Below are positions 6,281 through 40,596 of a stretch of 40,610 nt of DNA, one piece after another (position 1 is the stretch's first letter; every line of letters begins with the position of its first letter). Both the position numbers and the translations under genes were made by a program. The notes under the pieces were generated by a model, which saw only the letters and a program-made list of their open reading frames with translations, was not told the origin of the DNA and ran no database searches. The DNA comes from Clostridia bacterium (GTDB taxonomy: Bacteria > Bacillota > Clostridia > Oscillospirales > Acutalibacteraceae), in contig JAFQJH010000027.1 of the NCBI GenBank assembly GCA_017415025.1, forward strand, positions 1 to 40,610, in the 5' to 3' direction.

Positions 6281-6520
6281 AAAAAAGACTCCGTCCCACA
6301 GAAGGGACGAAGTCGAAAACTCCGCGGTACCACCCTTATTTTTGCCTGAGCAAACACTCTTGCACCCTTTAACGGAGGTGACCCGTCACAGCCTACTGCT
6401 TTCAACTGTGCTGCTCCAAAGTGAACTTCCGCAACCTTACGCATAAATGACCTTTCAGCAAATGGTCATTCTCTCTGAATGTATCGGGATGCGTACTCTC
6501 TTTTTCATCGCATTAACTCC
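6281..6520 (-). promoter_or_regulatory. T-box riboswitch, Phe-specific (UUC specifier)
   Basis: The minus strand carries the hallmark antiterminator sequence AGGGTGGTACCGCGG (about 6321-6336), which pairs with the uncharged tRNA end. Upstream is a stem I with an AGTA motif, and in its 3' side GCGGAAG-TTC-ACTTTGGAG places the codon TTC (6423-6425) in the specifier position, as expected for phenylalanine. The competing terminator hairpin GACTTCGTCCC/GGGACGGAGTC with six T lies at 6281-6314. Uncharged tRNA-Phe should allow readthrough into pheST. The transcript start is near 6518. Confidence 0.95.
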
Positions 6521-8826: not shown

Positions 8827-9786
8827 ATGCCGTTGATACCTCTTGATTGTCCGTCTTGCGGAGCAAATTTGACTGTCGACAGCAACAAAGATGCTGCTAT
8901 TTGTGAATATTGTGGTAAGCCATATGTTGTGAAAGATGCCATTGTGCATAACTATATAAATAATGTTACAAATATAACTGCTGATACTGTGAATGTATAC
9001 TCACAGAAAGATTTTGAAATTAGGGGAGGCGTTCTTGAAAAATATAATGGAGAGTCTGTTGATGTTATTATACCTGACAATGTCAAGGATATTGGTGGGG
9101 AGGCTTTTAAAGGACTATCTATTGAATCCGTTAAAATGCCTAGTAGTGTAACGAGTATTGGTTCTTCTGCGTTTGCATATTGTAGATACTTGAAAAATAT
9201 AGAATTTTCTAGTGGTTTAAAAAAGATATATGGCGAAGCTTTTATTGGTTGTGTCAGTTTGAAAACTTTAAGAATACCTAATGGAGTAACGACAATCCAA
9301 TATCAAGCTTTTGCGGATTGCTCAGACTTGGAATTTGTTACAATCCCAGTTAGTTTACAAAGTATTGGTCAAGGGACTTTCAATAATTGTATAAAGCTTA
9401 AAGATATTACTATCCCAGAAGGTGTAGTTTGTATTGAACAAAGTGCGTTTTTTAATTGCCGAAGCCTTACAAGTGTGACTTTCCCGAGAAGTTTGAAACG
9501 TATTGAAGAAAGTGCATTTATGGGTTGCGATAATTTGACAAAAATAGCTAGATCCGGAGGTACGATTGAAATCGGTTCAAATGCGTTTTATCCTTGTTCC
9601 AAACAAATAACACTAGTTACTTCGGAGGGCTCTTTTGAGGTATATCAACACGAATTGGGAAGACCTATAGAAGAAATCAAAAAGGAATATTTTATGAAGG
9701 AAAATAAGTGCACTTCATGTGGCGGTGACTTTACAGGTTTGATTATGAAAAAATGTTCAAAGTGTGGAAAATCTAAAGATTATTGA
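8827..9786 (+). CDS. Cytoplasmic BspA-like leucine-rich-repeat protein with two zinc ribbons
   Basis: The 319-residue protein starts with a zinc-ribbon-like CPSCGANL...CEYCGKPY (Cys 8, 11, 27, 30). About seven 23-residue repeats of the BspA/TpLRR type follow (pattern VTIPxSLQSIGQGTFNNCIKL). A second zinc ribbon, CTSCGGDF...CSKCGKSK, closes the C-terminus. There is no signal peptide or anchor, unlike surface BspA proteins, so an intracellular binding role is inferred. It has its own consensus promoter. The gene is clearly more AT-rich than the flanking genes, suggesting separate ancestry. Ligand unknown. Confidence 0.85.
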   Translation: MPLIPLDCPSCGANLTVDSNKDAAICEYCGKPYVVKDAIVHNYINNVTNITADTVNVYSQKDFEIRGGVLEKYNGESVDVIIPDNVKDIGGEAFKGLSIESVKMPSSVTSIGSSAFAYCRYLKNIEFSSGLKKIYGEAFIGCVSLKTLRIPNGVTTIQYQAFADCSDLEFVTIPVSLQSIGQGTFNNCIKLKDITIPEGVVCIEQSAFFNCRSLTSVTFPRSLKRIEESAFMGCDNLTKIARSGGTIEIGSNAFYPCSKQITLVTSEGSFEVYQHELGRPIEEIKKEYFMKENKCTSCGGDFTGLIMKKCSKCGKSKDY

Positions 9787-32045: not shown

Positions 32046-32855
32046 ATGCTGTATATTCACGAAAACAACATTAATGGAAAGATCAACCAAACAAGAGACA
32101 GTTCGGGCAGAAGAGTTAACGGCTATAAAAATCTAAGGGTCGAACTTGAAACTTTTAAGGCACAATATTATTTGCCTTTTCGTGACAGAATAGAGTCTTT
32201 GATTTTTGATGAAGATCACATTGAATCTTTTGAAACAGCTGCTCAAGAATTTAATACATACTATCAAAACTTGGTCGATTTTTCTGATCGACATGGAGTG
32301 AGATCTCAATCAAAATTCGAGTCGACTTTTCTTGAGGAAATTAGTTCCTATTTATTTAAAAATCTTCCACAGATTCAAAACGAAACTTTTGGTATTTTCA
32401 ATAAGGGTATTTATGCCGGATTAAAAATTGATAGCAATAACCATATAGCGGTTATTAAGAAAGACGTAGATTTTTGTATTGGAAAGAAAGCAAATATTAC
32501 TATTGATAACCAACCGTCAACTGAACTGATTTTGCCTGTTGTTGCAGTTGAAGTAAAAACTTATCTTGATGCGACGATGTTCGGGGAAATAAAATCTTCG
32601 AGCAAATCTATAAGAAGTGCATCGCCAAATTCTAGGACGTATGTCCTAATGGGATATCGAGATTTAGCAGATGAACATATAATTGCAGCAAGACAAGATT
32701 CGGCATTGACAGAAATGTTTGCTCTGCGCCAAGGCTTTAACTCTCCGATTCTTTCCACAGTTTTGTTGGAATACTGGAAAGAAATTAAAAATGCTGTTGA
32801 ATCTGTATCGGTTGACGATTTAGTTCCTTCGACAGGCCGTTTATTAAATCCTTAA
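32046..32855 (+). CDS. Type II restriction endonuclease, probably Bpu10I family
   Basis: A 269-residue protein with a PD-(D/E)XK-type core: KKDVDFCIGKK (Asp about residue 142), then PVVAVEVKTYLDATM (Glu-x-Lys about 169-171). Further on is TYVLMGYRDLADEHI. The sequence resembles proteins annotated as Bpu10I-family nucleases, a family that cuts sites such as CCTNAGC; the recognition site here cannot be told. Only one subunit gene is present. It directly follows the controller gene with no gap and converges on the cognate methyltransferase. AT-rich, consistent with transfer. Confidence 0.78.
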   Translation: MLYIHENNINGKINQTRDSSGRRVNGYKNLRVELETFKAQYYLPFRDRIESLIFDEDHIESFETAAQEFNTYYQNLVDFSDRHGVRSQSKFESTFLEEISSYLFKNLPQIQNETFGIFNKGIYAGLKIDSNNHIAVIKKDVDFCIGKKANITIDNQPSTELILPVVAVEVKTYLDATMFGEIKSSSKSIRSASPNSRTYVLMGYRDLADEHIIAARQDSALTEMFALRQGFNSPILSTVLLEYWKEIKNAVESVSVDDLVPSTGRLLNP

Positions 32856-32857
32856 GT

Positions 32858-32898
32858 AAAAGCATCGTGGATTATGCGAAATAATCCACGATGCTTTT
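32858..32898. terminator. Bidirectional terminator shared by nuclease and methyltransferase genes
   Basis: A perfect 18-bp stem (32858-32875 with 32881-32898, loop GCGAA) has A4 on the left and T5 on the right. The stem covers the last codons and stop codon of the methyltransferase gene and starts three bases after the nuclease stop. Confidence 0.9.
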
Positions 32899-33993
32899 TG
32901 CTATTGCTTTTGCGAGTAACGGCGGGACAGCATTCCCGATTTGCTGATATTGCGAAAGATTCTTTTCCCAAGACATTGTTGTGCGTTTGCCACAGAAAAT
33001 ATAAGTATCTGGGAAGGATTGAAGTCTTGCACCTTCTCTAGCAGTATAGTTCCTATTCAAATACGGGTGTACAAAATTGCTTTGAAAACTTGCGGGAATA
33101 GTTGGGGATGGTTTATCGGGATAGGGGCGCATATTATTTTGCGAATATACTTTTCCACTGATTTTATCAGCTTCTCCACGCTTCCTTTGCTGATATTCTT
33201 CGGCAACGTCAGCTACAGATTGACCATATTTTATCTGTGCGAAACGTTCAACTAATCTTGCGGTATGGCGCATAGCAACGTGATTATGAATAACAGTACT
33301 GTTTTGTCTTGCCCACTCTTGATATTTAGTGAATGGACGCATTGAGTATTCCATAGTGTCCGAACCTTCCCCAGCAGCAATTTGGGGCAAATCCATTATT
33401 GCATCCGTTATAGTGCGTTGCTCATTTCCAAAAAGGAATCCTTTTGGTTCAATTCTGTCTTTGTCATATGGAATGTCATTTCTCAAGCCAATAAAGAAAA
33501 CTCTTAAACGGCTTTGAGGAACACCAAATTCAGCGGCGTTTAAAGTGAAGGTTTCTAGAGTATATCCTGCTGAATTAAATTCAGCTTTTATCAAATCTTT
33601 TACATTGTCACCGCTTTTGGTTTTCATAGAAAGAATGCCAGTAACATTCTCCATTACAAAAAAACGAGGTTTAAAATGCTTGACAAATCTAACAAACTCC
33701 ATAAACAAACTGTTGCGAGGGTCGTTTTTATCTCTGTTTCCGCTCAAGGAAAAGCCTTGGCATGGCGGCCCCCCTATAATGCCATCTATAGATTTAATGC
33801 CATCGGGTAAGATTGAGGATAAATCCAAAATTTGAGTAATGTCTTCTGTGATTACTTTTGTTGTTGGGTGATTCTTTTTATATGTTTCGGATGCCCAATC
33901 ATCTTTTTCAATTGCAACGGGAATATTAAACCCTGCCATTTCAAAGCCGAGACTTAATCCTCCACAACCTGCAAATAAATCAATTATATTCAT
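32872..33993 (-). CDS. DNA cytosine-5 methyltransferase
   Basis: A 373-residue m5C methyltransferase with all main motifs in order: I (DLFAGCGGLSLGFEMAGF), IV with the catalytic Cys 78 (GGPPCQGFSLSG), VI (FVMENVTGI), VIII (QSRLRVFFIGL), IX (YTAREGARLQSFPDTYIF) and X (QIGNAVPPLLAKAI). The variable target-recognition region is about 225-295. It protects host sites from the convergent nuclease. It lies 11 bases downstream of an XRE gene on the same strand. Base composition is AT-rich like the nuclease. Confidence 0.95.
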   Translation of the reverse strand: MNIIDLFAGCGGLSLGFEMAGFNIPVAIEKDDWASETYKKNHPTTKVITEDITQILDLSSILPDGIKSIDGIIGGPPCQGFSLSGNRDKNDPRNSLFMEFVRFVKHFKPRFFVMENVTGILSMKTKSGDNVKDLIKAEFNSAGYTLETFTLNAAEFGVPQSRLRVFFIGLRNDIPYDKDRIEPKGFLFGNEQRTITDAIMDLPQIAAGEGSDTMEYSMRPFTKYQEWARQNSTVIHNHVAMRHTARLVERFAQIKYGQSVADVAEEYQQRKRGEADKISGKVYSQNNMRPYPDKPSPTIPASFQSNFVHPYLNRNYTAREGARLQSFPDTYIFCGKRTTMSWEKNLSQYQQIGNAVPPLLAKAIAKSIVDYFA

Positions 33994-34530: not shown

Positions 34531-34575
34531 TGGTCGAGGCGACAGGACTTGAACCTGCGGCATCCTGCTCCCAAA
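34531..34575 (-). mobile_element. 3' fragment of a tRNA-Pro gene (attachment-site remnant)
   Basis: On the minus strand the 45 bases run from the anticodon loop TTTGGGA (anticodon TGG) through the T arm (GCAGG-TTCAAGT-CCTGT) to the acceptor end and CCA. The 5' half of the tRNA is missing: the adjacent bases do not pair with the anticodon stem. This is the pattern left when a tyrosine-recombinase element integrates in the anticodon loop and restores the full tRNA at its other end, which should lie to the right. Confidence 0.85.
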
Positions 34576-34715
34576 TGATAGGAAAGCCCTACTTTATAGA
34601 CATTTCCGGTTATTTCTAACCCTTTCTGCTCAAAAGCACATCCTCTTTGATGCTTTTATCTCCTTTATATCCGTGTGTTCCGGTCACAGAAGTGGGATAA
34701 ACTGTGGTCAAAAAA
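34569..34715. repeat. Element-end repeat, copy A
   Basis: From TTTGGGA of the tRNA fragment to the A run after GTGGGATAAACTGTGGTCA, this 147-base segment aligns without any gap to 37104-37250. Blocks of identity (ATTTCCGGT, TTATCTCC, TCCGTGT, GTGGGATAAACTGTGGTC) alternate with divergence. It is the likely left arm of an integrated element. A hairpin terminator-like sequence follows at about 34709-34757. Confidence 0.75.
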
Positions 34716-34786
34716 CAACCTCGCAGTGTTGGGATTTTCAGACGATGCAAGGGTGTTTTTATTTACAGCCATTCTCTATATCAAAA

Positions 34787-34813
34787 TTTGATCCGCAGTA
34801 GACAAAGAATAAG
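34787..34813. repeat. TAGACAAAG repeat, copy 1
   Basis: GATCCGCAGTAGACAAAGAA is closely matched by copies at 38123 and 40556. Here it lies between the element-end repeat and the ATPase promoter. Confidence 0.7.
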
Positions 34814-34867
34814 TTCCAGTTGAAACAGAGGTTGCACATAAACAGCAAGAAAGGGTAGGGTAACAAT

Positions 34868-34981
34868 GCGAAAAAAGTGTAGAAATACGCAAAATGCCCG
34901 GAAGCGCATATTGACTTATAATATTGGCTATGATATAATAGTTTCCGAAAAAAGTGAGTAAATACGCAAAATTTCCGAAAG
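34868..34981 (+). repeat. Pair of 35-base direct repeats flanking the ATPase promoter
   Basis: GAAAAAAGTG...AAATACGCAAAAT...CCG.AAG occurs at 34870-34904 and again at 34947-34981, exactly 77 bases apart, with about six differences. One copy ends just before the -35 box; the other covers the whole leader down to the ribosome site. They bracket the promoter as operator half-sites would. Confidence 0.8.
34911..34939 (+). promoter_or_regulatory. Promoter of the DUF4143-type ATPase gene
   Basis: TTGACT (34911-34916), 17 bases, TATAAT (34934-34939), lying between the two 35-base direct repeats. Confidence 0.82.
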
Positions 34982-34991
34982 AGGTTTGGCT

Positions 34992-36290
34992 ATGATTGAA
35001 AGAAAAAAGTATCTTGAAAGACTCATCGCTAAGAAAGAAAACGGCTTGGTAAAGGTTATTACCGGTATTAGAAGATGTGGAAAATCGTACTTGTTGTTCA
35101 ACATTTATAAAGACTATCTTAAGTCCATCGGCATAGAAGATGAGTGTATCATCTGCCTTGCACTCGATGATGACGAGAATATCAAGTACCGTAACCCTCT
35201 TGAACTTGGCAAGTATATCCGCAGCTTAACTGTAGATGAAAGCAAAACGTATTATGTGTTTCTCGATGAGATTCAAAAGGTTGTTACCATTCAAAACCCC
35301 TATGTGGAAGGTGTCGAGGATAAGATCGGCTTTGTGGACGTTGTGCTTGGTCTTATGAAGCACGATAACATTGACGTATATGTAACCGGAAGCAACTCAA
35401 AAATGTTATCCTCTGATATTCTTACTGAATTCCGCGGGCGCGGTGACGAGATCCGTGTGAATCCTCTTTCTTTTGAAGAGTTCTATCATGCGTACAAAGG
35501 CGATAAGCGTGATGCTTGGCAAGAGTATTATACCTACGGCGGACTGCCTCTTGTAATAAAGAAAAAAGGACACGAGGAAAAAGCAAAGTATCTGGAATCT
35601 TTGTTTGGTAAGATTTATATCGGGGATATCATAGATCGAAACAGGATATTACACGATAAATCCGTTCTTGACGACCTTTTGAATATCATTTCTTCTTCGG
35701 TAGGATCACTTACTAACGCAAGCAAGATATCCAAAACATTTAAAAGCGAAAGACAAGTAAGCATAAGCGATGAAACCGTCAGCAGATATCTGGACTTCTT
35801 CATTGATGCATTTATGATATATAAAGCCGAACGGTATGATGTTAAAGGCAGAAAATATATTGGATCTCCGCTTAAATATTATTTCAGCGACGTAGGCCTG
35901 CGCAACGCGAGACTTAATTTCCGTCAGCAAGAAGAGAATCATATTATGGAAAACATCATTTATAACGAGCTTTGTAATCGCGAGTTTAGTGTAGACGTCG
36001 GCGTGGTTGAGTACTGTTATAAAGATGAAAATAAAAAGAGCAAACGCTCACAGTTGGAAATAGACTTTGTGGCTAACAAAGGTAGTAGAAAGTATTATAT
36101 CCAGTCTGCACTTACCGTGAGCGAAGAAGAAAAACGTCAGCAGGAAGTCAGATCTCTCAACCGTGTCGGCGATTCCTTTAAGAAGATAGTTGTAGTTAAA
36201 GACAATATTATTCCGTGGCACGATGACAACGGTATTCTCTATATCGGTATTGAACAATTTCTTCTTGATGAAACCGCTATGGATATGTAA
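34992..36290 (+). CDS. AAA_14/DUF4143-type ATPase
   Basis: A 432-residue protein with an N-terminal P-loop ATPase (Walker A GIRRCGKS, residues 25-32; Walker B YYVFLDEIQ, about 90; sensor GSNSKML) and a C-terminal DUF4143-type domain. The latter includes IGSPLKYYFSDVGLRNARLN and an IDFVANKG stretch that resembles a nuclease-fold core. The family is abundant in gut bacteria and archaea and has no settled function. ATG at 34992 is chosen over TTG at 34986, because AAAGAGG is then seven bases away. It is cargo of the tRNA-linked island; the next gene is 47 bases on. Confidence 0.9.
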   Translation: MIERKKYLERLIAKKENGLVKVITGIRRCGKSYLLFNIYKDYLKSIGIEDECIICLALDDDENIKYRNPLELGKYIRSLTVDESKTYYVFLDEIQKVVTIQNPYVEGVEDKIGFVDVVLGLMKHDNIDVYVTGSNSKMLSSDILTEFRGRGDEIRVNPLSFEEFYHAYKGDKRDAWQEYYTYGGLPLVIKKKGHEEKAKYLESLFGKIYIGDIIDRNRILHDKSVLDDLLNIISSSVGSLTNASKISKTFKSERQVSISDETVSRYLDFFIDAFMIYKAERYDVKGRKYIGSPLKYYFSDVGLRNARLNFRQQEENHIMENIIYNELCNREFSVDVGVVEYCYKDENKKSKRSQLEIDFVANKGSRKYYIQSALTVSEEEKRQQEVRSLNRVGDSFKKIVVVKDNIIPWHDDNGILYIGIEQFLLDETAMDM

Positions 36291-36337
36291 CGAAGCCGTG
36301 TTAAAGCGTAAAACAAAAAAGTGGGTGGAGTTTACGA

Positions 36338-36916
36338 ATGATTTATTATGCCACAAAAGAAACGTTACAACGCTATAAGCTGAAGACTCCGGAACAATTT
36401 GAATCAGAGATGGCGCCGTTCGTTCGCGCAGTCGTAAGTCGGGAACGTGGAAATAGATTGTTTGAATGGGGCTGTAAGCTATTTTACTTCGATAGAAGAA
36501 AATGCTTGCAAATTATGCACTTTGAAACGAAACTGGTCATTTTTCTGGTGGATTTGAAAGTAAAGGATCTTGAATGTGTGGGGGATGCGGTTGCGCATTA
36601 CCTACTGGATCTGTATGCCGGGGATTCGAGTATGGAGCAAGCATTAAAGAACTACTTTGCTACCGCTCCCCTGGTGTGCTTTGACCGGATAACGGATAAA
36701 AGCATTATTGCCAGCTTGAACGGAGTACAGTCGCGTTGGGCATGGGATGGGTACCGTTTTTATGATTATATTAAGGACGGCGTTTTACATACCAGACAAA
36801 TCAACCGGGACGTCAATGAAATGCCTCAAATGAGAAAGACAAACGGCAAAGAGGAGTGGATAGTTCCTAATGAGCTGTTTGCACAAACCATCAAGAAACA
36901 TTTTGGGGAATTATAA
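36338..36916 (+). CDS. Uncharacterised protein, resembling DUF6933-type proteins
   Basis: A 192-residue soluble protein with no signal peptide. It opens IYYATKETLQRYK and contains FEWGCKLFYFDRRKCLQIMHFETKLVIFLVDLKVKD, an alternating pattern suggesting a beta-sheet core (the stretch is one block in the gene, split in function unknown). It resembles small gut Firmicute proteins I recall under DUF6933, but this is from memory. GGTGGAG precedes the ATG. It lies 47 bases after the ATPase gene without a visible promoter or terminator between, so it is probably cotranscribed. Confidence 0.7.
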   Translation: MIYYATKETLQRYKLKTPEQFESEMAPFVRAVVSRERGNRLFEWGCKLFYFDRRKCLQIMHFETKLVIFLVDLKVKDLECVGDAVAHYLLDLYAGDSSMEQALKNYFATAPLVCFDRITDKSIIASLNGVQSRWAWDGYRFYDYIKDGVLHTRQINRDVNEMPQMRKTNGKEEWIVPNELFAQTIKKHFGEL

Positions 36917-36975
36917 GGGACTTAATTAAACAATGGGTTGAATGTATTTTGTGGTTGTTCAAGTTAAGCAATGAA

Positions 36976-36994
36976 GTGGACTAACTGTGGTCAA
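36976..36994. repeat. GTGGTCA motif, second of three
   Basis: GTGGACTAACTGTGGTCAA matches GTGGGATAAACTGTGGTCA at 34692-34710 and 37227-37245 with one deletion and few changes, in the same orientation. It may be an arm-type binding site for a recombinase. Confidence 0.6.
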
Positions 36995-37060
36995 GTGCCA
37001 AAATGGTGATAGGTTCGAATAAAGTTCAAATGCCGAAATATCGCATAAAGTAAGGGTTTT

Positions 37061-37110
37061 TCCTGGATTTGAACCTGTCAAAATACGACGTTTTTCGACA
37101 CTGTCCCAAA
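37061..37110 (-). mobile_element. Degenerate tRNA 3'-end-like sequence at second element boundary
   Basis: On the minus strand TTTGGGA (37104-37110) is followed 28 bases later by CAGGTTCAAATCC (37065-37077), the anticodon-loop and T-arm signatures found in the tRNA-Pro fragment at 34531. There the spacing is 11 bases. The middle part has diverged or been expanded. It probably marks an older or second integration boundary. Confidence 0.5.
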
Positions 37111-37250
37111 GAAATCCGGAGTACCTGTTTCCGCTTATTTCCGGTCGTTTCCGCCCCTTTCCGCTCGAAAACAGATGCTTTCCGGCACTCTTATCTCCAC
37201 TGTTTCCGTGTACTCCGAGCGTGTCTGTGGGATAAACTGTGGTCAAAAAA
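37104..37250. repeat. Element-end repeat, copy B
   Basis: Gap-free partner of 34569-34715 at an offset of 2,535 bases. On the minus strand both copies also share a similar reading (LTTVYPT...HG..GDKS), but copy A has a stop codon, so a decayed coding remnant is possible. Confidence 0.75.
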
Positions 37251-37341: not shown

Positions 37342-37980
37342 CTATTTTCGATAACCGTTTTTCTGGCACATTTCGTTTATGGACTCAGCAAAAATAGAAC
37401 GGGAATGCTTGTCGGGATTATCATTTGTGTTTTTCTTGTAAAGGTAGTAATCGAGTAGTTCGCCCCATAAATCTTCTTTTTTCAGCCAGTCAATTTTCTT
37501 CTCTAAGCCAACAAATCCTTTGCCTTGGTATTCCCACGAATAATAATTGTTGTCTTTGTTGAACCGAATGTACTGTTGCCTGCCGTCTTTACAATTATAA
37601 ACTATTGCAAAATCGCAACTATGAATAATGCGACAGGTGAAAGTATTTACTTTCTTGACAGTAAGTACTCGAGTTGAATCCTCGCAGGTTTTATAACCAT
37701 AACGTGGTGCCACGCGGTTGATGGCATTTCGGATTTTTTCTCTTATTTCTTTCGGCTCGAAATTTTCTTCGTCATCATTCACCTCAATGTTGATATCAAA
37801 GTCAAAACCGATATTTGACTTCGTGTCGTAAGTAATCATATTGCGACTTGAACTGCCAACCGTTGTGAAGCTGAAGGTAAAATGATCTCTCACAAGGTCT
37901 TGAACTTCATAAAGGATTTGATACAATTCTTCCTTTATCGGCTTTGCTTCGTTTCTTGTTACGTACCTAAAATCGTGCAT
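37342..37980 (-). CDS. Minimal polymerase-beta-type nucleotidyltransferase
   Basis: A 212-residue protein with the nucleotidyltransferase pattern: VGSSSRN (Gly 42, Ser 43), FDFDINIEV (Asp 60 and 62) and a third acidic strand SCDFAIV (Asp 123). The catalytic triad thus appears complete. It is shorter than typical CD-NTases of CBASS systems (usually near 300 or more), and no effector gene sits beside it. TAGGAG lies seven bases before the ATG. It is monocistronic with its own promoter and terminator, within the island. It could be an antiphage, toxin-type or tRNA-modifying enzyme; the substrate is unknown. Confidence 0.7.
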   Translation of the reverse strand: MHDFRYVTRNEAKPIKEELYQILYEVQDLVRDHFTFSFTTVGSSSRNMITYDTKSNIGFDFDINIEVNDDEENFEPKEIREKIRNAINRVAPRYGYKTCEDSTRVLTVKKVNTFTCRIIHSCDFAIVYNCKDGRQQYIRFNKDNNYYSWEYQGKGFVGLEKKIDWLKKEDLWGELLDYYLYKKNTNDNPDKHSRSIFAESINEMCQKNGYRK

Positions 37981-38068: not shown

Positions 38069-38122
38069 GTGATCTTTTTATAATTATATCAAAAATGAAT
38101 TTGGATCTCAAGGCGAAACAAA

Positions 38123-38161
38123 TTTTGCACCGCAGTAGACAAAGAAAAAGGGGATTGAGAA
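38123..38161. repeat. TAGACAAAG repeat, copy 2
   Basis: TTGCACCGCAGTAGACAAAG then AAAAAGGGGATTGAGAA. It extends the match with the copy at 40556 to nearly 40 bases. It lies between the divergent nucleotidyltransferase and peroxidase promoters. Confidence 0.78.
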
Positions 38162-38267: not shown

Positions 38268-38807
38268 ATGAACGCATACGATTTTAAGGTTAAGAAAACG
38301 GACGGCAGCGAAGTATCTCTTGATGAGTACAAGGGAAAGGTGTTGCTGATCGTCAACACTGCAACGGGATGCGGATTCACGCCGCAGTATAAGGAGCTCC
38401 AGGAACTGTATGAGGAGTTTTCGGCGCAGGGATTTGAAATTCTTGATTTTCCCTGCAATCAGTTTGGTGAGCAAGCACCCGGAAGCGATGAGGAGATCCA
38501 CACCTTCTGCACGGGCCGCTTTGGCATCACGTTCCCTCAATTTGCAAAGGTGGACGTAAACGGCGAGAACGCCATTGCGCTTTATAAGTGGTTGACCGAG
38601 AACACTACTTTTAACGGTTTCGGCAAATCTCCCATGGCACTTATGATGTCTGGAATAGCAAAAAAGATGGACAAGGATTATAAGAACAACGGCAACGTAA
38701 AATGGAATTTTACAAAGTTCCTCATCAACCGTAACGGCGAGATTGTTGCTCGCTTTGAACCTACCGATATGAAGAAACTGAAAGAAACGATAAAGGAGTG
38801 CCTGTAA
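38268..38807 (+). CDS. Glutathione peroxidase family protein (thiol peroxidase)
   Basis: A 179-residue peroxidase. The catalytic Cys 35 in NTATGCGFTPQ replaces selenocysteine, with Gln 65 in DFPCNQFGEQ and Trp near 147 in VKWNFTKFLI completing the active site; Cys 63 in FPCNQ is also usual. Bacterial Cys-type members generally use thioredoxin rather than glutathione. It reduces peroxides in the cytoplasm. GGAGG precedes the ATG. First of four tightly packed genes. Confidence 0.95.
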   Translation: MNAYDFKVKKTDGSEVSLDEYKGKVLLIVNTATGCGFTPQYKELQELYEEFSAQGFEILDFPCNQFGEQAPGSDEEIHTFCTGRFGITFPQFAKVDVNGENAIALYKWLTENTTFNGFGKSPMALMMSGIAKKMDKDYKNNGNVKWNFTKFLINRNGEIVARFEPTDMKKLKETIKECL

Positions 38808-38808
38808 C

Positions 38809-39213
38809 ATGAAGATAGCAGTTCGTTACTATACCCGTTCGGGAAATACAAAGAAGTTAGCAGAGGTAGTTGCCGAGGCGGTCGCAGTCGAGGCAAAGGA
38901 CGTGTCCGTACCGCTTGAAGACAAGGCAGACGTTCTGTTCCTTGGTTGCTCCTATTACGCATTCGACATTGATCCGGCGGTAAAGGATTTTATCGTCAGC
39001 AATAAAGATAACATTGGCAAGATCGTCTGCTTCGGCACGTCTGCGATGATGAAATCTATGAAAAAGCCTGTGAGAAAGGTTGCAGATACCGTAGGTGTTG
39101 CCGTTGCAGAGGAAGAATTCCATTGCCGTGGCGAGTTTGCGAAGATCCATAAAGGCAGACCGAACGAAGCGGATCTGGCACGTGCTGCGGAGTTTGCAAG
39201 AGGTATTCTATGA
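38809..39213 (+). CDS. Flavodoxin-like protein
   Basis: A 134-residue protein with the FMN phosphate loop YYTRSGNTKKLAEVV and a second flavin loop near FLGCSYYAFDID. It is short for a flavodoxin but otherwise complete, with KIVCFGTSAMMKSM corresponding to the next strand and loop. It probably passes electrons to a reductase encoded nearby. It starts one base after the peroxidase stop and overlaps marR by four bases. Confidence 0.88.
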   Translation: MKIAVRYYTRSGNTKKLAEVVAEAVAVEAKDVSVPLEDKADVLFLGCSYYAFDIDPAVKDFIVSNKDNIGKIVCFGTSAMMKSMKKPVRKVADTVGVAVAEEEFHCRGEFAKIHKGRPNEADLARAAEFARGIL

Positions 39214-39653
39214 GTAATTCGAAATACGACGTACTAAAGCTTGAAAATCAGCTTTGCTTTCCGCTGTACGCCGCCGCACGAGAGGTGGTCAAACAATACC
39301 GCCCGTACCTTGATGCCATCGACCTTACCTATACGCAGTACATCACCATGATGGTTATGTGGGAGGAGAAGGAGATCACCGTCAAGGCGCTCGGCGAAAA
39401 ACTCTTTCTCGATTCGGGAACGATGACTCCCGTGCTCAAAAGCCTTGAAACCAAGGGCTACGTTACCCGTAAAAGAAGCACGACGGACGAGCGCTCTGTG
39501 AGCGTTTTCCTTACCGACAGCGGCGAGGCTCTAAAAGAAAAAGCGGTGGACATTCCCGCAAAGGTTGCCGGTTGCGTAGGCCTCACTGCTGAGGAAGGTT
39601 TGCAGCTATATAAAATTCTTTATAAGATACTTTCGAAAGAAGGCGAAGAATGA
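39210..39653 (+). CDS. MarR-family regulator, OhrR-like
   Basis: A 147-residue winged-helix repressor: LENQLCFPLYAAAREVVKQYRPYL at the N-terminus with Cys 15 in the position used by OhrR for peroxide sensing, TYTQYITMMVMWE, and wing GYVTRKRSTTDERSVSVFLT. The LENQLCF start strongly resembles OhrR-type sensors. It probably represses its own operon through the palindrome at 38234. It overlaps the neighbouring genes by four bases on each side (ATGA), indicating translational coupling. Confidence 0.92.
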   Translation: MSNSKYDVLKLENQLCFPLYAAAREVVKQYRPYLDAIDLTYTQYITMMVMWEEKEITVKALGEKLFLDSGTMTPVLKSLETKGYVTRKRSTTDERSVSVFLTDSGEALKEKAVDIPAKVAGCVGLTAEEGLQLYKILYKILSKEGEE

Positions 39654-40465
39654 ACAAGATTACAGAACTGATAAACAAAAGAAGAAGCGTTCGCACCTAT
39701 GACGGCAGAGCGCTTGATGAAAATATAAAGGAACAACTCCTGTCGTATGCGAATGCAATTCAAAACCCTTTCAACATTCCGGTTCAGTTCAAGTTCCTCG
39801 ACGCTAAGAAAGACGGTCTGACCTGTCCTGTTGTAAGCGGTACAGAGCTGTATGTCGGCGGAAAAATTGAAAACGTACCGCAAGCAAGCGTTGCCTTTGG
39901 ATATTCCTATGAGGAATTTGTTCTGTATGCGCAGTTGCTGGGCCTTGGCACCGTCTGGCTTGGCGGTACGATGAATCGCTCCGCTTTTGAACAGGCAATG
40001 GATCTTGGCGAAAACGAGATGATGCCCTGCGCCACACCCATCGGCTATACGGCAAAGAAAATGTCCATCAGGGAAACTATGATGCGAAAGGCGATCAAAG
40101 CGGATGAGCGACTGCCATTTGAGGAACTGTTCTTTGACGGCTCGTTTGATACGCCGCTGACAAAAGAAAAGGCAGGCGAATTTGCCGAACCTCTGGAAAT
40201 GGTAAGACTTGCCCCTTCGGCAGTCAATAAACAGCCTTGGCGCGTTGTTGTTGCGGATCATACTGCTCACTTTTATCTCAAGCGCAGTAAAGGCTTCGGT
40301 CACGAAGGAAAGCTCGATATGCAGATGATCGATATGGGCATAGTGCTCTGCCATTTTGCACTTACCGCAAAAGAAAACGATCTGAACGTTAACTTCGTGC
40401 AGGAAGATCCAAAGTTAATATCGGATGACGGTGTTGAATATATTGCATCTTACAAGAGAAAATAA
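39650..40465 (+). CDS. Nitroreductase family protein
   Basis: A 271-residue FMN-dependent reductase-like protein. It opens ITELINKRRSVRTYDGRALD with the typical RRSVR flavin-binding stretch; QLLGLGTVWLGGTMNR and MVRLAPSAVNKQPWRVVV follow. The duplicated nitroreductase-like halves match the TM-nitroreductase subgroup. It likely reduces quinones or nitro compounds under oxidative stress, perhaps with the flavodoxin. Last gene of the operon, followed by a terminator. Confidence 0.9.
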   Translation: MNKITELINKRRSVRTYDGRALDENIKEQLLSYANAIQNPFNIPVQFKFLDAKKDGLTCPVVSGTELYVGGKIENVPQASVAFGYSYEEFVLYAQLLGLGTVWLGGTMNRSAFEQAMDLGENEMMPCATPIGYTAKKMSIRETMMRKAIKADERLPFEELFFDGSFDTPLTKEKAGEFAEPLEMVRLAPSAVNKQPWRVVVADHTAHFYLKRSKGFGHEGKLDMQMIDMGIVLCHFALTAKENDLNVNFVQEDPKLISDDGVEYIASYKRK

Positions 40466-40514: not shown

Positions 40515-40555
40515 TCATTTCCAAATGCGCGAACATATCGGCACATATATCAGTG

Positions 40556-40596
40556 ATTGCACCACTGTAGACAAAGAAAAAGGGATTGAGAAAAGG
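40556..40596. repeat. TAGACAAAG repeat, copy 3
   Basis: TTGCACCACTGTAGACAAAG then AAAAAGGGATTGAGAAAAGG. It matches the copy at 38123 closely. It lies after the redox operon terminator and so may open another module; an ATG at 40598 is too close to the window end to judge. Confidence 0.75.

Follow-up and report, generated by a model that had tools for sequence, protein, structure and literature searches.

We analysed a window of 40,610 bp, contig JAFQJH010000027.1 of a Clostridia bacterium (GenBank assembly GCA_017415025.1), which is the entire contig C20 of a genome, G000, in 28 contigs and 84% complete. The window carries two copies of a 147-bp segment, and in our opinion, with a probability of about 0.82, this segment represents the right arm of cassettes inserted head to tail at the sequence TCCCAAA of tRNA-Pro(TGG) by site-specific recombination. 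The original prediction, made from the letters of the window alone, had read the pair as the ends of two related elements accreted in tandem at one attachment site, with the tRNA-like part of the inner copy decaying. The arm and the tandem elements at one site stand, and tandem accretion appears well supported by the anatomy of the window and by comparison with other genomes. The decay does not stand, because the left arm of the first element, with an arm motif of its own and conserved in relatives, adjoins the second copy at 37104.

Anatomy of the repeat pair

The two copies (34569-34715 and 37104-37250, both in plus orientation) indeed align without a gap at an offset of 2,535 and are identical at 97 of 147 positions. 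Both open with TCCCAAA, so that they start in a tRNA loop as had been proposed, and their final 24 bp, GTGGGATAAACTGTGGTCAAAAAA, match perfectly. When the first copy was compared with the whole genome, the only matches apart from itself were the second copy (114 bp, 73%, E 1.9e-12) and a 24-bp stretch of contig C16 (96%, E 2.6e-4); hence the pair is not due to chance. We discarded the idea that these 24 bp are coding (they can be translated as W-D-K-L-W-S-K), since the arms are intergenic and the copies continue into differing sequence.

Element 1, at 34569-37103, consists of a right arm, two cargo genes and a left arm, with a core at either end (34569-34575 and 37104-37110). The right arm, of a kind that we call type B, bears the arm motif GTGGGATAAACTGTGGTCAA at 34692-34711 (plus strand), 123 bp from the core. 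The content expected between the copies, an ATPase and one further gene, is what is found: an AAA_14/DUF4143 ATPase (34986-36290) and a DUF6933 protein (36338-36916), both on the plus strand, which correspond to the PADLOC candidate defence models PDC-S01 and PDC-S63, and neither of which is a recombinase. A promoter-like site of the cassette (34911-34939, plus strand) is a consensus match only, at 11/12. The left arm (36976-37103, plus orientation) has AACTGTGGTCAA at 36983-36994, 121 bp from the core, and then the end TTTTTCGACACTG; AACTGTGGTCAA is present on both sides of the core at 37104.

Since the left arm of element 1 adjoins this second core and element 2 starts there, 37104 is an attP-like junction of left arm, core and right arm. 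The layout of the left arm recurs in genome G096, and similar ends occur in G035, L042, L089 and L141. G096, which belongs to another family, has element 1 at 88% over 2,728 bp, again on a tRNA-Pro 3' half and again followed by a second, non-identical right arm. We also looked for a decayed tRNA to the left of 37104 and rejected it: the T-loop-like string there lies about 17 bp farther from the core than in a tRNA half and, judged by eye, is not conserved among relatives.

The split host tRNA and its spare copy

ARAGORN finds no tRNA in the window. The stretch 34531-34575 reads as the 3' half of a minus-strand tRNA-Pro up to the anticodon loop TTTGGGA, the displaced half itself being 34531-34568 and the remainder being the core, the left end of element 1. 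The matching 5' half begins at a core at C16:25965, and if the flank of the first half is joined with C16:25972 onward, a 77-nt tRNA-Pro(tgg) with paired stems results. In G000, the target gene is split and its fragments lie at the island ends, on C20 and C16, which most likely represent opposite ends of a single island. A tRNA-Pro also results from rejoining the halves in SVPV01000002.1, where they stand on one contig 15.4 kb apart, and in G044 and G096. The joined sequence is matched in 14 of the 18 genomes of the genus, and four of them (G010, G002, G004 and G011) carry such a tRNA-Pro without interruption. In G010, G002 and G004 the match spans the promoter region and the tRNA, in G011 the tRNA only, and in all four the downstream flank is unmatched; these genes are likely, though not proven, to be empty sites.

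A complete second tRNA-Pro is located at C16:25728-25803, just inside the displaced half. The other half, the spare tRNA and a pair of recombinase genes are all on C16, outside the window. The 5' half of the spare tRNA belongs to a 199-bp mini-cassette; the target is restored, and it is assembled from element-borne parts, not from one host half. Even with a wider pattern, G000 yields only two tRNA-Pro 3' halves (14 genomes were scanned). In 11 of the 14 array genomes the only intact tRNA-Pro(TGG) matching our pattern contains the mini-cassette unit (G000, G044, G096, G379, G367, G211, G171, G243 and G440, and, with a divergent motif, G311 and G185), while G035 and G092 have another intact tRNA-Pro(TGG) and G081 gives no pattern match; unusual tRNAs could escape this pattern, and all of these are draft genomes.

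How the spare copy could be transcribed is suggested by a 12/12 promoter match upstream of the displaced 5' half on C16. Between this match and the tRNA we found neither a terminator-like site nor, on the tRNA strand, a promoter-like one, which makes read-through from the original promoter to the spare tRNA plausible. According to PMC8371274, recombined tRNAs mostly retain the original promoter.

The recombinases

The two adjacent genes on C16, int1 (388 aa) and int2 (485 aa), lie 3-5 kb from the spare tRNA. They are the tyrosine recombinase genes of the island. Both products match PF00589 and PF14659, and R219, K257, H322, R325, H348 and Y358, which we take to be the catalytic residues, are invariant in 12 aligned sequences. 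Of the 12 loci that have a type-A arm (the mini-cassette kind, described below) at a tRNA and 4.5 kb or more of flank, 10 contain int2 or at least a piece of it, and 8 contain both genes. In the structural model of int2 (mean predicted local distance difference test score 76, predicted template modelling score 0.43), each end carries a beta-beta-beta-alpha unit; when the two ends were compared with each other, with no composition correction, they shared 35% identity across 54 residues (E 4e-6). Its best structural match among solved folds is Tn1549 Int; the integron integrase IntI4 ranks lower.

Comparison of junctions across genomes

When one genome per species was scanned, GTGGGAYAAACTGTGGTCAAA turned up in at least 118 stretches. 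Their titles name metagenome-assembled genomes of Clostridia, Oscillospiraceae or Eubacteriales, one Ruminiclostridium and one 'bacterium', and many mention goat, sheep, deer or buffalo gut samples; indeed, most genomes compared are metagenome-assembled. Within the order, the motif is present in 31 of 394 genomes and 20 of 169 genera, and its reversed control in 0 of 394. Viral contigs gave no match to the arm motif, and phage and plasmid records none to the arm. Two viral-contig matches to the left-arm pattern stand in phage-like DNA that lacks the arm motif, and they seem fortuitous.

From this material 126 junctions were retained, in 113 of 120 sequences. Two loci were merged into one sequence, four were omitted because other stretches already represented their contigs, six matches at unusual distances were excluded, and a spurious mini-type match inside the arm of L055 was removed; seven motif matches had no core in range, most of them at contig ends or degenerate. 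Overall, 78 of the 126 junctions are at a tRNA-Pro 3' half and 48 at other sequence, mostly the ends of other cassettes; ten type-B and three short type-A junctions were assigned as tRNA halves by eye. The core TCCCAAA is exact in 125 of the 126, while both flanks vary.

In type B, the kind seen in the window, the core lies 122-134 bp upstream of the motif (43 junctions). If the segment is an arm, it was suggested, it should stand beside tRNA ends with varied cargo, and it does: its neighbour is a tRNA-Pro 3' half in 24 (four of them degenerate), the left arm of another cassette in 18, and unclear in one (L145). In type A (83 junctions), the core is 62-84 bp upstream and the 5' half of a tRNA-Pro lies inside; 54 adjoin a tRNA-Pro 3' half, giving a tRNA that ARAGORN calls intact in 49, and 29 adjoin other sequence.

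Type A defines the mini-cassettes. The next core after the arm comes at 186-243 bp in 78 of 83 (most commonly at 198, in 38 of the 78), four have no core within 300 bp, and one is too short to judge. Beyond the unit there is mostly a 5' half that varies between genomes and is sometimes degenerate, and 72 of the 83 units form one cluster. There is a serious alternative here, which we lean away from and nevertheless consider a real contender: the mini-cassette may not be independently mobile, but a fixed right end of a larger island that carries a complete tRNA-Pro as cargo, the true ends being the two outer cores. That 54 of the 83 mini-type arms adjoin a 3' half, and that recombinase genes lie on that side in 10 of 12 such loci with enough flank, is what one would expect from such an arrangement. 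It does not explain why the remaining 29 come after other sequence, mostly left arms, why another arm motif follows directly in 7 of 78 units, that is, as tandem copies, or why one cluster of mini-type 5' halves is paired with several kinds of 3' half.

Two further tRNA-Pro loci deserve mention. At G092:C33:13576-13837 (loci L040 and L214), a mini-cassette sits on a 3' half that is unpaired in the anticodon stem, beside a normal tRNA-Pro. In L165 (G012:C39, about 9117-9672), the variable-loop region of tRNA-Pro holds two copies of a different repeat of about 120 bp, which enclose a complete tRNA-Pro.

The distance from core to motif falls into classes of 62 (9 junctions), 70-74 (66), 83-84 (8), 122-124 (42) and 134 bp (1). 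These fit a period near 10.2 bp, a fit that sets of five random distances equal in 0.8% of trials; such quantised spacing is what one would expect if a recombinase arm site had to stay on the same face of the helix. Where the left-side motif is found, it lies 108-122 bp from the core in 19 of 20 junctions and at 130 bp in L051.

Points against insertion at the core

Several observations weigh against cassettes inserting at the tRNA-Pro core. No circle, excision or binding has been observed, and the evidence is all comparative. C20 and C16 are separate contigs that are not joined in the draft assembly, and the rejoining of tRNA halves is not a strict test, as a control with halves swapped between genomes still reads as tRNA-Pro(tgg) in 2 of 6 cases. 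The island in SVPV01000002.1 has no recombinase, and L097 has none near its tRNA. The left-side motif was found in 20 of the 36 non-tRNA junctions with enough sequence, and the five spacing classes of the phasing test were picked by the analyst. Finally, the ends of blocks of homology between sequences show no excess near cores (4 of 656, against 3.5 expected).

This last result would also suit ordinary duplication or homologous recombination of an island end as the source of the second copy, instead of site-specific insertion, and the arms, at 73% over 114 bp, are similar enough to recombine. We nevertheless find such an origin quite improbable. The starts of homology blocks are strongly enriched near cores (85 of 541 points, against 3.3 expected), the 7-bp core stays fixed between junctions whose flanks vary on both sides, and one right-arm cluster is joined to 7 left-flank clusters and another to 15; moreover, the copies in the window, at only 66% identity, are too divergent for a recent duplication. 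A reading in which the shared segment serves tRNA-Pro or the cargo genes as a conserved RNA leader or regulatory element is hardly credible: the mini-type segment would be on the presumed tRNA precursor transcript and, by eye, an inverted repeat flanks the motif, but no Rfam family matches at the gathering threshold, the segment is also found next to tRNA halves that are broken and between cassettes, positions in which no tRNA could make use of it, and its spacing from the core is phased by helix turns.

A second repeat inside the cassettes

A directional repeat that we call 'rep', with the consensus ATCAAAATTTGATCC-GCAGTARACAAAGAA-AAA, is about 33 bp long and was found in 71 distinct copies; with at most one mismatch, 72 copies are oriented along the array and 0 against it. 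In G000 the five copies with at most one mismatch are all on C16 or C20. The sites in the window are 34780-34812, 38117-38149 and 40549-40581 (all plus orientation, the last with two mismatches and at the contig end), and those on C16 are at 1313, 18034 and 25021. Away from the arms, homology blocks both start near 'rep' (24 of 541, against 2.7 expected and at most 12 in 500 shuffles) and end near it (34 of 656, against 3.3 expected and at most 12 in shuffles). For example, a 942-bp block bounded by two copies is common to G100 and L123, and a one-gene block ending at 'rep' is found in C16, L067 and G092. To judge from these alignments, 'rep' is a module boundary inside the cassettes; we infer that it may be a recombination site as well. 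In three loci, 'rep' copies are paired 65-67 bp apart (L052:2051/2118, L119:216/281 and L153:109/176, in array orientation); such a pair would be an empty module, if 'rep' is a true cassette site. Eleven matches to 'rep' in viral contigs are without the left half of the repeat and seem fortuitous. A reading of 'rep' as a Xer/dif site was weighed, by eye only, and not adopted.

Element 2 begins with its type-B right arm (motif at 37227-37246) and a minus-strand gene at 37342-37980, which has no Pfam match and which we take, by eye, to be nucleotidyltransferase-like. Between the second and third 'rep' copies element 2 has a plus-strand redox module (38268-40465: glutathione peroxidase, flavodoxin-like, MarR and nitroreductase genes), present also in L106 at 76-90%. 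C16 carries SspB-, SspC-, DndA/SspA-, PbeA-, PbeC- and DndB-like genes and AbiEi, and the Ssp/Pbe/Dnd-like, phosphorothioate-type defence genes occupy C16:1731-15273 within the island. Just outside the island, beside the tRNA half, the window has a Bpu10I-like restriction enzyme and a C5 DNA methylase (32046-33993). Far from these features, at 6300-6517 on the minus strand, stands a T-box leader, followed by what is presumably pheS.

Proposed mechanism and comparison with known systems

We propose that int1, int2 or both would bind AACTGTGGTCAA as arm sites, with strand exchange at the borders of the anticodon loop, so that circular cassettes would be inserted at a core. The recombinase would act in trans on cassettes that lack their own. 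The spare tRNA would maintain proline decoding; its transcription would start at the original promoter and run across the displaced 5' half and the mini-cassette. Taken further, the arrays might represent a two-level, integron-like capture platform in an essential tRNA gene: paired tyrosine recombinases would stack cassettes at the tRNA-Pro anticodon loop, a cassette of about 199 bp would swap the 5' half and make the host's only tRNA-Pro(TGG) an element-made one, and single-gene modules would be exchanged at the one-way site 'rep'. We offer this only tentatively, doubting it as a whole more than we believe it.

The likeness to integron arrays lies in modules parted by repeats that point the same way (72 to 0 for 'rep') and in single-gene modules common to several genomes. 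The present arrays seem to differ from integrons in int2, whose best structural match is Tn1549 Int, in 'rep', which by eye shows no attC boxes, and in having genes in either direction.

The system seems to be of a known kind, tRNA-targeted islands with tandem accretion, of which the cassette array would be a variant. As the consulted sections of the Islander paper describe them (PMC4383910), tRNA islands also have tyrosine recombinases, a target split in the anticodon loop and a tRNA fragment at the island end; there, 2083 of the 3919 listed islands are anticodon-centred, 159 are listed with a 5' and 3760 with a 3' fragment, and four tandems consist of three or more. The same sections say that candidates without an integrase or below 2 kb are rejected and that integron integrases are left out. 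Unlike the islands they portray, here both halves of the host tRNA appear displaced, with a complete replacement inside, and cassettes may be without a recombinase and as short as about 199 bp.

The portions consulted of an account of CIMEs (cis-mobilizable elements) and of tandem accretion among integrative and conjugative or mobilizable elements (PMC5704250) describe elements without integration genes of their own that keep their attachment sites and stand in tandem at one site. Element 1, which is bounded by an attachment site on either side and lacks integration genes, is such an element; unlike the CIMEs of that account, the mini-cassettes are only about 199 bp and carry a tRNA half. In our opinion this is more than occasional decay, because the same arm families recur with many cargos in at least nine families of one order. 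Tycheposons, set beside our elements by description only, are alike in being cargo elements at tRNA genes with a tyrosine recombinase; the parts of PMC10872708 consulted make no mention of short recombinase-less cassettes or of a swapped tRNA 5' half. In the openly licensed literature we recognised no description of the present system, which is weak evidence of its novelty.

Implications

The arrays suggest a way in which gut Clostridia collect genes for defence and stress at a single essential locus. If a mobile array takes over the proline tRNA of its host, it would be hard to lose, which would amount to retention without a toxin. The quantised spacing of the arms offers a directly testable binding rule, and 'rep' may represent a second cassette-exchange system outside the classical integrons.

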